The position numbers and the translations under genes are program-made. From assembly GCF_002192415.1 (NCBI RefSeq), contig NZ_CP021780.1, positions 992,001 through 1,056,000 on the forward strand: DNA of 64,000 bases. The letters are read 5' to 3'. This stretch comes from Paenibacillus donghaensis. GTDB lineage: Bacteria; Bacillota; Bacilli; Paenibacillales; Paenibacillaceae. Shown in pieces: positions 7,253-51,774 of this stretch. Within the stretch, counting starts at the first letter, position 1. Every line of letters begins with the position of its first letter. A model generated the notes under the pieces. That model ran no database searches. It was not told the origin of the DNA and saw nothing but the letters and a program-made list of their open reading frames with translations.

Positions 7253-7440
7253 GTTGCGGACTCCAGTGCCGCTATTTCGCGTAGATCGCCCATTTTGCTG
7301 CTGCTGCGGACTCCAGTGCCTCTATTCGAGCTAAAAGGCCTCCTTGTGGAGGCTTTTTATGGTTATAAGGGCACTGGAGTCCGTTGAGGCTCAAAAACAG
7401 CTGAAATCGGCACAATAAGGGCTATAGAGTCCGTATCTAC
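7253..7440. repeat. Intergenic array of inverted GGACTCCAGTGCC-type units, with a terminator inside
   Basis: GCGGACTCCAGTGCC occurs twice in direct orientation (near 7257 and 7308). Its complement (GGCACTGGAGTCCG) is near 7370, and a diverged inverted copy (GGGCTATAGAGTCCG) near 7419. Between the second and third units a terminator-like hairpin is present. The layout of alternating short units matches the other intergenic arrays in this window, although the unit sequence differs. Confidence 0.6.
7336..7358 (+). terminator. Rho-independent terminator after the sigma operon
   Basis: GCCTCC-TTGT-GGAGGC is followed by TTTTT. It is placed inside a larger inverted repeat (GGACTCCAGTGCC/GGCACTGGAGTCC). 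Confidence 0.7.
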
Positions 7441-7460
7441 ACTATTGTGGGGGTGTAGGT

Positions 7461-7665
7461 TGGCACGGCGTGGGTTGTGCGCCCGTGTGCACTTGTCCGT
7501 GTGTATTAGCCTTTGCCCTTAAGGTGGTCTAAGGTTTGGCACGGCGTGGTTTGTGCGCCCGTGTGTACTTGTCCGTGTGCATTAGTCTTTGCCCTTAAGA
7601 TGGTCTAAGGTTTGGCACGGCGTGGGTTGTGCGCCCGTGTGCCTTAGCCTTTGCCCTTATCGTCT
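7461..7665. repeat. Three tandem copies of a 76-bp repeat
   Basis: TGGCACGGCGTGG starts at 7461, 7537 and 7613, an exact 76-base period. Each copy continues with TTGTGCGCCCGTGTG and TTTGCCCTTA. The third copy lacks an internal part. No open reading frame of note covers it. Confidence 0.85.
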
Positions 7666-24204: not shown

Positions 24205-24278
24205 CGCGCATTCCGTAGGAACAGCCCGCCTTTGACCTTACGAACTTGCGAATTCCGCAGGAACAACCCGCTTTTGAT
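24205..24278. repeat. Two direct copies of a GCGCATTCCGNAGGAACA-type unit
   Basis: GCATTCCGTAGGAACAGCCC and CGAATTCCGCAGGAACAACC start 36 bases apart. Further copies occur at 24605 and at 51504 and 51547, always beside the other dispersed repeats described for this window. Confidence 0.75.
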
Positions 24279-24585
24279 GTTACTACTTAGGACTCTTTAT
24301 CAAAAGATTTATGCAGAATCTGTTCCATCCTTAGGAGCCGAACAATTAGTTGCGAAACTGCATCTATTTAACCGTTTTTTTCCGTTTTGGAGGAAATAAG
24401 TGCGAATACGCATCTATTTTAGACTTTTGAGCGTTCCAAGAGTGAGTTACTCGAAATTAGGTGTAGATTTGCACTTATTTGCCTGCTGATGGACGTTTCG
24501 GCTGAATTTAGTTGCAGTTTCGCATCTAATTACTGGAAAGGCTGCAGGGCAGACTATAAATTCTGGCTGGAACCTGAGTAGTAAC
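24279..24585. repeat. Element with GTTACTACTTAGG terminal inverted repeats and hairpin units (copy A)
   Basis: Ends GTTACTACTTAGGACT (24279-24294) and its imperfect complement (GGAACCTGAGTAGTAAC, 24569-24585) match the perfect ends of the element at 51099. The 307-base interior holds four hairpin units of about 24-26 bases, the clearest being AATTTAGTTGCAGTTTCGCA followed by TCTAATT. No transposase. A short open frame across it looks accidental. Confidence 0.7.
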
Positions 24586-24601
24586 GTTTTTGACGTTAAG
24601 G

Positions 24602-24836
24602 TGTTGCGCATTCCGAAGGAACAGCCTGTCTTTGAACTTAACCCCCGGCCGAGCATCCCGTCAGGGATAGCCAACTAACATCAGCGGCGTCCAAGCGGTC
24701 CCGAAGGGATAAGCGGTCCACCCTCCCCAACTGCCTAGACACCGTACCGCCGGACTCCTTCGCCAAGCTTGCGGGAGTCCAGAGGGTGCAGCCCTTTGGG
24801 GCCCTCCCTTGGAAGGGAGGGTTTGGGAGGGATCGA
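24602..24836. repeat. Dispersed composite GC-rich repeat, copy 1
   Basis: Starts with GCGCATTCCGAAGGAACAGC and runs through CCCGTCAGGGATAGC, GCGTCCAAGCGGTCCCG, CGCCAAGCTTGCGGG, GTCCAGAGGGTGCA and CCCTTTGGGGCCCTCCC to GGAAGGGAGGGTTTGGGAGG. The same succession occurs at 51545-51774. It ends about 40 bases before trmL and contains several perfect short palindromes. Confidence 0.85.
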
Positions 24837-24875
24837 AATCTATTACAGCCAGCAAAGAGAGGAAACATCCATATT

Positions 24876-30470: not shown

Positions 30471-30768
30471 GTTACACTTAAGCTGCCGAGTTGGCCGGAT
30501 CTAGCTATGCATACTGCTGAGCGTAATTAGTTGCGAAAACGCATCTAATTGGCGGACTTTTTCCGTTTTGAAGCAAATAGATGCAAAAAGGCATCTAATT
30601 TCGGCATTCGAGCGCTTCTGACCTGATTTACTCGAATTTAGTTGCAGTTTCGCACTTATTTGCCTGATTATTGCTGATTTGGTTGAAATTAGTTGCACAT
30701 TCACATCTATTTGCTCCGGCTGTTCCAGGGTAACGTTCTAAATCCTCGCTGTGACTTAAGTAGTGATC
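30471..30768. repeat. Degenerate hairpin-unit element (copy B)
   Basis: Interior units of the copy A kind: TTAGTTGCGAAAACGCATCT, AATAGATGCAAAAAGGCATC, TTTAGTTGCAGTTTCGCACT and ATTAGTTGCACATTCACATC. The right edge CTTAAGTAGTGAT and left edge GTTACACTTAAG resemble worn terminal repeats. Confidence 0.6.
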
Positions 30769-34756: not shown

Positions 34757-34857
34757 TTGTTTATGCCTGCCTGAAAGAATAGGGGCTATACGGTCCGTAC
34801 ACTCAGATTGCCCAAGAACTAAATTCGCCTAAAGACCCTCCAACCTCTCGCATAACA

Positions 34858-41910: not shown

Positions 41911-42102
41911 CGAAATACCTGCAAATCTGCAGGTATTTCGGGACTTTCACAGCGTTATGAGGTGAATTCCTGCGAAAATACAGGTATTTACCGGGTTCGT
42001 TCTCACAAACGGAAGATAACGTCTAAAAACCTGCACATTTGCAGGAATTCGTCCCAAAGGCTGGAGTGCGGCACCAAAGCCTGCACATTTGCAGGAATTT
42101 CT
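41911..42102. repeat. Array of four palindromic CCTGCANATNTGCAGG units
   Basis: Unit 1 (41911-41940) is a 30-base palindrome with 13-base arms (CGAAATACCTGCA). Units near 41962, 42025 and 42076 are related (ATTCCTGCGAAAATACAGGT, AACCTGCACATTTGCAGG twice). Spacing is 50-60 bases. The last unit is interrupted by the IS4-family element and continues at 43648. A 77-codon open frame through it looks accidental. Confidence 0.75.
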
Positions 42103-51039: not shown

Positions 51040-51098
51040 GGATTTCTCCTCACCATTTCTTGGATGATATGAATAAGTTACATTTTCTTATAATCTAC

Positions 51099-51367
51099 GT
51101 TACTACTTAGGACCCTAGCCATCCCCAAGTAGGTTTGTGCCTTCGGAGTAGTACAACAGAGGTGGCTATGGGGAAAAAATACCGTTAATACCTGGCTCAT
51201 GCTCGATTGTCGTGTCTTATAGGGAAAAGTTACCACTACATCATCTATTGAGGGCTTTTCGGAGCGGATAGGACCTCATTAGCGGTAAAAATTCCCTATA
51301 AGCTCGCCAGAACGCCCAACTAGCGGTAGAATTTCCCTATCATTCCTCACTGGTCCTAAGTAGTAAC
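51099..51367. repeat. 269-bp element with perfect 16-bp terminal inverted repeats (copy C)
   Basis: GTTACTACTTAGGACC (51099-51114) and its exact complement (51352-51367) bound an interior with four units of the type TAGGGAA...TTACCGCTA in alternating orientation. No coding capacity. The ends match copy A (24279-24585), but the interior units are different in sequence. Confidence 0.85.
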
Positions 51368-51501
51368 CAATCTACTAATTATACCAAGACCTGTCCAATT
51401 CTCAAAATGAAAAAACAAGAAAAAGAGACTGCCGGAAATATCGGCAGCCTTCTTACTAGCTGTATAGGAAATTATGATTTTCTTTTGTTGTATATAAGGT
51501 C

Positions 51502-51774
51502 TTGCGCATTCCGAAGGAACAGCCTGCCTTTGCTCTTAGGATTTTGCGCATTCCGAAGGAACAGCCCGCCTTTGCTCTTGCCCCCGGCGTGCGTCCCGTC
51601 AGGGATAGCGGGCCGCCCATGCGAGCGTCCAAGCGGTCCCGCAGGGATAAGCGCTCCTTCCCCCCAGCCTCCTAATCACCGTACTGCCAGGCTCATTCGC
51701 CAAGCTTGCGGGTGTCCAGAGGGTGCAACCCTTTGGGGCCCTCCCTTGGAAGGGAGGGTTTGGGAGGGATCGAT
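51502..51774. repeat. Dispersed composite GC-rich repeat, copy 2
   Basis: Two GCGCATTCCGAAGGAACAGC units (51504 and 51547) are followed by the same string of motifs as the copy at 24602-24836, ending with CCCTTTGGGGCCCTCCC and GGAAGGGAGGGTTTGGGAGG just beyond the 3' end of the minus-strand AraC gene. Same orientation as copy 1. Confidence 0.85.

Follow-up and report, generated by a model that had tools for sequence, protein, structure and literature searches.

The element at positions 51099-51367 of the analyzed stretch of the Paenibacillus donghaensis chromosome (64 kb in its whole length, referred to as the window) is best read as a non-autonomous IS66-type MITE. It is likely moved by the transposase TnpC and carries an array of four motifs also found without recognizable transposon ends in related bacteria; judged from sequence comparison, we give this reading a probability of about 0.6. 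According to the proposed mechanism, an IS66 transposase would act on the MITE ends in trans, and TnpC would favor the dyads of one MITE family, alpha, which would thereby serve as landing pad for the swarm. A phased protein-binding array, whose like-oriented units are spaced about five helical turns apart, would predate the IS66 ends, which would have captured such arrays probably three times, giving rise to the families alpha, beta, and gamma. The element itself is short, non-coding, and multicopy with inverted ends, and in this respect is a MITE. Its features are:

51099-51367, plus strand: gamma-family IS66-type MITE, 269 bp, 90% identical to the full-length gamma consensus
51099-51114, plus strand: left terminal inverted repeat GTTACTACTTAGGACC, 16 bp
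51352-51367, minus strand: right terminal inverted repeat, perfect, exact complement of GTTACTACTTAGGACC
51091-51098, no strand: left copy of the target duplication, TAATCTAC
51368-51375, no strand: right copy of the target duplication, CAATCTAC, matching the left copy in 7 of 8 bases
51167-51187, plus strand: unit u1
51218-51238, plus strand: unit u2
51280-51298, minus strand: unit u3, reversed
51321-51339, minus strand: unit u4, reversed

An earlier note on this DNA had described perfect 16-bp inverted ends, which are indeed present at 51099-51114 and 51352-51367, and four units in alternating orientation. The four units are there, their order being two forward and then two reversed rather than alternating. 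The 8-bp target duplication with one mismatch that flanks the element is absent from that note. The distance between u3 and u4 is 41 bp compared with 51-52 bp in other gamma copies, which hold about 11 additional bases between these two units. Within the window, the 16-bp end pattern has four matches at up to three mismatches (shuffled sequences: mean 0.13, maximum 2).

Further copies, proposed as a check in the earlier note, were detected by BLAST in the P. donghaensis genome (8.54 Mb, one contig, with the window at 992001-1056000), giving 42 matches to the element, itself included. The ends occur 439 times (211 + 228) in this genome at up to two mismatches compared with five times (3 + 2) for the reversed-pattern control and are therefore not a product of chance. 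An apparent skew in how the ends are oriented across the chromosome was rejected, as it is an artefact of the selection of positions. Across 60 genomes, ends at up to one mismatch were found in four, namely P. donghaensis (352), G027 (15), and two others with one each. The exact 13-bp end pair at a distance of 280-310 bp was not found in a collection of 84,980 species, from which the P. donghaensis genome is possibly left out. A transposase-based search of genome contigs for named relatives gave 24 stretches with the pattern, none of them confirmed. Genome G027 harbors a related family of 183-184-bp MITEs with ends like GTTACTACTTAGGTAC (L066, L067, L078, L082, L073) and an IS66 element of 1084 bp that has an internal deletion and an 8-bp duplication; the single MITE copy inspected there contains no four-unit array.

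The chromosome that hosts the MITEs also contains three full-length IS66-family elements:

L088 847-2473: full-length IS66-family element, 1627 bp, both ends perfect
L090 1362-2963: full-length IS66-family element, 1602 bp, one mismatch in one end
L119 856-2458: full-length IS66-family element, 1603 bp, one mismatch in one end

Their transposase frames are open (509-518 aa, stop to stop) and contain the domains PF03050, zf-IS66, and NF033517. Two of the elements are 99.6% identical and the third 86%, and each is flanked by an 8-bp duplication centered on an alpha dyad. The MITE consensuses match the outer 16-27 bp of these elements at the one or the other end. Because full-length IS66 elements with the same ends reside in the chromosome, the element at 51099-51367 is assigned to the IS66 type; shared ends and duplications suggest that the MITEs are likely moved in trans by the IS66 transposase TnpC. 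The transposon-like character that the earlier note had ascribed to the ends is thus borne out: the element has further copies, target duplications of 8 bp, and autonomous partners of the IS66 family. Relatives of the transposase at 46-49% identity were detected in genomes G112 and G085; these have the first 13 bp of the ends in common and are flanked by duplications of 8 bp, which contain a mismatch in one of four cases. Names among the best 120 of 5124 transposase relatives include Paenibacillus and Cohnella. A second, different IS66 transposase gene is located at G000:C1:7904649-7905509 (539 aa open frame), a locus without ends at up to four mismatches.

Cataloguing was based on 170 P. donghaensis loci, a subset of all ends, and yielded 108 end pairs flanked by 8-bp duplications (one mismatch allowed), or 101 distinct insertions once shared ends were removed; 69 of the 101 have exact duplications. 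Catalogued elements of up to 440 bp cluster into groups of 43, 25, and 21 plus two singletons. They represent alpha (~310 bp), beta (~298 and ~420 bp), and gamma (~280 bp, including the window element). The two beta forms are related (78% over 240 bp), while alpha, gamma, and beta298 have only about 16-26 terminal bases in common. Despite these unrelated interiors, each family contains four units of ~20 bp in a common layout, spaced 50/61/51 bp in alpha, 50/62/50 bp in beta298, and ~51/62/52 bp in gamma, the first gap of the latter being taken from the consensus. The alpha unit is the dyad TARNTGC-N6-GCANYTA, beta and gamma units measure 19-21 bp, and units of all three families mostly start and end with TA. 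In the window, alpha is represented by two copies:

24279-24585, plus strand: alpha-family MITE whose right end departs from the 16-bp pattern at 3 positions
24347-24366, 24397-24416, 24458-24477, and 24509-24528: dyads of this alpha copy
30471-30767, no strand: decayed alpha copy whose end remnants have 6 and 4 mismatches
30528, 30578, 30639, and 30690: dyads of the decayed copy, spacing 50/61/51

The earlier statement that the copy at 24279 keeps the ends and changes the units needs amendment: its interior is different, belonging to alpha, and its right end deviates from the 16-bp pattern by three mismatches. The broader proposal that ends and units evolve separately is strengthened by three unrelated interiors between identical ends and by the recurrence of the array layout elsewhere without recognizable ends. 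A single 20-bp match at 34778-34799 is 100% identical to a beta-family unit, with no longer beta match in the 64-kb window. Next to both MITE copies, at 24210-24845 and 51500-51770, lies a dispersed repeat (GCGCATTCCGAAGGAACAGCC...), followed in both cases by a common GC-rich stretch ending in GGAAGGGAGGGTTTGGGAGGGATCGA.

In all families, the units are more conserved than the spacers. The values are 0.888 versus 0.733 in alpha (17 aligned copies; the observed value is attained by 0 of 276 rotations), 0.986 versus 0.935 in beta298 (20 copies; 2 of 265), 0.964 versus 0.923 in beta420 (13 copies; 0 of 392), and 0.865 versus 0.735 in gamma (15 copies; 0 of 247), the masks of gamma and beta420 including three of the four units. 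Alpha copies were selected for at least one perfect dyad, which introduces a mild bias, and gamma copies were collected by ends and length, not by units. Within alpha dyads, perfect palindromes are found in 21 of 216 cases compared with 59.8 expected, without prior alignment of the copies in a single orientation, and the most common half-site seems to differ between dyad positions.

Analysis of the landing sites revealed that most of the catalogued copies have landed inside other members of the swarm. With the flanks joined across the element, 69 of the 101 insertions lie inside alpha copies (51 of the 69 with exact duplications), and 68 of these 69 are located at the exact center of an alpha dyad. 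All four dyads are used, with insertion centers at 80.5 in u1 (18), 130.5 in u2 (12), 191.5 in u3 (16), and 242.5 in u4 (22); the remaining insertion, at 220.5, has a weak alignment. Insertion at the dyad center makes the 8-bp duplication C-N6-G. By class of inserted element, the share landing in alpha is 12/26 for alpha, 23/28 for beta298, 14/20 for beta420, 16/23 for gamma, and 4/4 for IS66 or composite elements, and loci partly chosen for dyads contribute only six of the 101 insertions. Landing sites for the swarm are thus a feature of alpha, which in turn leads to nesting: at L119, one alpha copy is inserted in a dyad of a second, and the inner copy hosts an IS66 element. None of the 101 catalogued insertions lies inside a beta or gamma copy, and landing sites are therefore not provided by all types of unit. 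Insertions stay clear of genes: of 89 empty sites with sufficient flanking sequence, 10 hit an ORF of at least 100 aa, versus 1740 of 2000 random sites of the window.

A larger mobile unit that includes the palindrome flanks would make insertion into palindromes only apparent, and identical half-sites do flank many copies. This explanation is scarcely credible, given that the duplicated 8 bp vary between sites, that all four alpha dyads are used, that, with the element taken out, the joined flanks match an alpha copy through the insertion point, and that 32 of the 101 insertions lie outside alpha. At these 32 sites, counted on both strands, T is found at position 1 in 47 of 64 cases and A at position 2 in 45 of 64. 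Twelve of the sites are dyad-like; the 20 others still show T in 27/40 cases at position 1, A in 24/40 at position 2, and A or G in 27/40 at position 3, compared with T in only 16/40 at position 5. Outside alpha and aside from dyad-like sites, the consensus therefore consists of little beyond TA at both ends. Since this TA bias persists outside alpha, the transposase itself seems to prefer TA at both ends. We infer that TnpC prefers a symmetric, TA-flanked 20-bp target, for which alpha dyads would be the best sites, so that alpha would act as an intergenic landing pad.

The array also occurs in settings without recognizable transposon ends. Two cases are present in the window:

7256-7433, no strand: four-unit array with other motifs (GCGGACTCC...), spacing ~50/59/50, no terminal repeat detectable in the flanks
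41916-42097, no strand: four-unit array of TACCTGC-N6-GCAGGTA-type dyads, spacing 51/61/50, no terminal repeat detectable in the flanks

A terminator-like hairpin (GCCTCCTTGTGGAGGCTTTTTA) at 7336-7362 occupies the center of the former, between u2 and u3, and a tandem repeat around GGTTTGGCACGGCGTGGGTTGTGCGCCCGTGTG adjoins it at 7450-7650. Two P. donghaensis gamma arrays (L266, L281) likewise have no ends at up to four mismatches. The gamma unit occurs 43 times in P. donghaensis, once in G091, and in none of 98 other genomes; around the G091 match there are four related units at about gamma spacing, without ends. The alpha dyad is found 835 times in P. donghaensis (control 0) and 0-5 times in each of 39 other genomes (controls 0-4). 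Pairs of alpha dyads at array spacing are confined to two of 100 genus genomes, P. donghaensis with 344 and G101 with seven.

All arrays could be old MITE relics, with a layout that arose once in an IS66-type MITE, ends that were lost elsewhere, and a unit conservation that reflects search bias. Decayed alpha copies with end remnants do exist in P. donghaensis (30471-30767 and L101), and the G101 arrays were found by their dyad pattern, so their conserved dyads are partly selected for. We nevertheless regard this as unlikely. Genome G101, which has no IS66 transposase match, contains 60 alpha dyads at up to one mismatch (control 9), and the 20 loci with at least two dyads show no end remnant (mean best mismatch 5.5, shuffled 5.4). 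Aligned stretches of these arrays are only about 69-80% alike, and yet the 51/61/51 spacing is kept: the 37 gaps between neighboring dyads, all of 50-66 bp, include 18 of 51 bp and eight of 61 bp. This spacing is only partly independent evidence, because the loci were found by dyads and seven of them by the pair pattern, which already limits the gap. Gamma units are more conserved than spacers although the copies of this family were chosen by their ends and length. That motifs vary so much among arrays also speaks against relics.

This motif variety was uncovered by a motif-free detector, which compares four stretches of 20 bp all against all, u1 and u2 being read directly and u3 and u4 as complements. 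In addition to the window, it was run on 400 kb of G091, 200 kb of G112, 200 kb of G063, and 376 kb drawn from 20 genomes in other families of this order. Spacings of 30-80 were tried, and tandem repeats, which the detector also reports, were removed. The detector returned 25 matches at a direct spacing of 50-52, one at 49, and 11 distributed over ten other spacings, where some arrays may be counted at two adjacent spacings; 100 kb of E. coli gave one match, at spacing 42. Array motifs vary widely between matches, and arrays with other motifs were found in the genus genomes G091, G112, and G063 as well as in G042 of another family, the best array outside the genus being L329 of G042 (score 102 of 120).

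Around 23 arrays of these four genomes, neither IS66 ends (5.61 mismatches, shuffled 5.39) nor an excess of 14-bp inverted matches (10.04, shuffled 10.20) was detected. The mismatch-tolerant flank test applied here recovers the ends of the 24279 copy (0 and 1 mismatch); it was used instead of an exact 10-bp flank test, which misses these known ends. Tandem runs of a dyad-like motif (AAATGAGGGGCAAAAGTGCCCC) with a 51-bp period were observed in G063 (L318, 7282-8000 and 17598-17960), their period being equal to the array spacing and their location inside long frames according to crude ORF calls.

Taken together, the array is probably a separate, widespread module that the IS66-type ends of the MITEs now enclose. 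In a free-centre lattice grid, a shift of the windows trades against the center distance, so that only the direct spacing of 50-52 bp counts as independent, and center-to-center spacings from a self-dyad search were too noisy. As 51 bp correspond to about five and 61 bp to about six helical turns, the sites may face one side of the DNA; such helical phasing may hold, with the center distance less well fixed.

An RNA function would account for the arrays differently: u1 with u4 and u2 with u3 would pair into a bidirectional 3' UTR hairpin comparable to REP elements or terminators. The element at 51099-51367 indeed folds better than shuffled sequences on both strands (z -4.64 and -4.38). Among 24 arrays with genes called on both sides, 12 are placed convergently, nine in tandem, and three divergently (crude ORF calls). 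REP-like repeats have a comparable placement relative to their flanking genes. The pairing itself finds little backing in the units, and we consider an RNA element distinctly improbable. Over 27 arrays, likeness is about the same for each of the six possible pairings of units (14.0-15.5 matches of 20), and the presumed helix partners hardly exceed the other combinations (helix pairs 14.8, direct pairs 14.6, cross pairs 14.2). Loop complementarity between u2 and u3 of alpha is 0.435 compared with a shuffled-pair mean of 0.566, again without a uniform orientation of the copies. No Rfam family reaches the gathering score in the window, and none covers an array in nine array loci, the one match there being a cobalamin riboswitch outside the array. 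Thus, the "foldable" units of the earlier note hold insofar as the element folds better than shuffles, while the near-equal likeness of the four units does not resemble RNA helices. Because all six pairs are about equally alike, a repeated recognized motif fits better than two RNA helices, and the four-unit array is likely a set of protein-binding sites.

A more far-reaching interpretation, to which we lend somewhat less than even odds, is that the arrays form an undescribed class of intergenic elements that is present in this genus and, beyond it, in one or more further families of the order. It would be defined by four ~20-bp dyads, two forward and two reversed, separated by ~5/6/5 helical turns. 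The dyads would be specific to genomes or families as if tracking their own DNA-binding proteins, IS66 ends would have captured arrays several times, and in one species this would have created a self-made landing pad.

A transposon family that brings along its preferred target, and thereby stacks within itself and outside of genes, clearly illustrates how a compact genome can tolerate hundreds of copies, and it opens the target choice of TnpC to direct testing. Should the array prove to be an independent module, a large bacterial group possesses a common intergenic element that has neither a name nor a binding protein, to which the many motif families offer a route.

No open-licence paper was found that combines IS66, MITE, and Paenibacillus, and no described MITE family with this layout came to light there, in line with the earlier note, which had known of none. 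Likewise, the open-licence literature searched offered no description of an IS66-type MITE with such targeting or of a fixed four-unit array, and no matching element appears in the available excerpts of PMC9769881, PMC3189936, PMC3733652, and PMC2267715.

With the IS66 family, the elements described here share a transposase with PF03050 and zf-IS66 domains, 8-bp target duplications, and inverted ends; the closest subgroup is presumably that of the single-transposase members such as ISBst12. Accounts of IS66 elements usually report no strict target specificity, and in this they differ from the strong preference for one 20-bp dyad and the MITE swarm of P. donghaensis. Insertion into dispersed palindromes has been described for IS1397, IS621, and ISRm22, which target REPs, ISRm22 at the palindrome axis (Tobes and Pareja 2006, PMC1525189, as far as excerpted). 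IS66 does not occur in the main text of that paper, and the host in its excerpted cases is a REP (PMC1525189), whereas in P. donghaensis the host is a four-site MITE belonging to the same mobile family. In Coxiella, IS1111 was reported inside QMITE2, with the MITE palindrome as IS target in two cases (PMC10969869, in excerpt). The excerpt does not state that the element shares the MITE ends (PMC10969869); in P. donghaensis, by contrast, there are 68 precise cases and the ends are shared. As dispersed intergenic palindromes in regular composite arrays, the four-unit arrays correspond in this respect to REP/BIME elements. BIMEs and REPINs, to the extent covered by the available parts of PMC2817692 and PMC3116915, likewise consist of several short, regularly spaced intergenic dyads; the arrays described here are set apart by their fixed layout of two forward and two reversed units, their ~51/61/51 spacing, and their many unrelated motif families.
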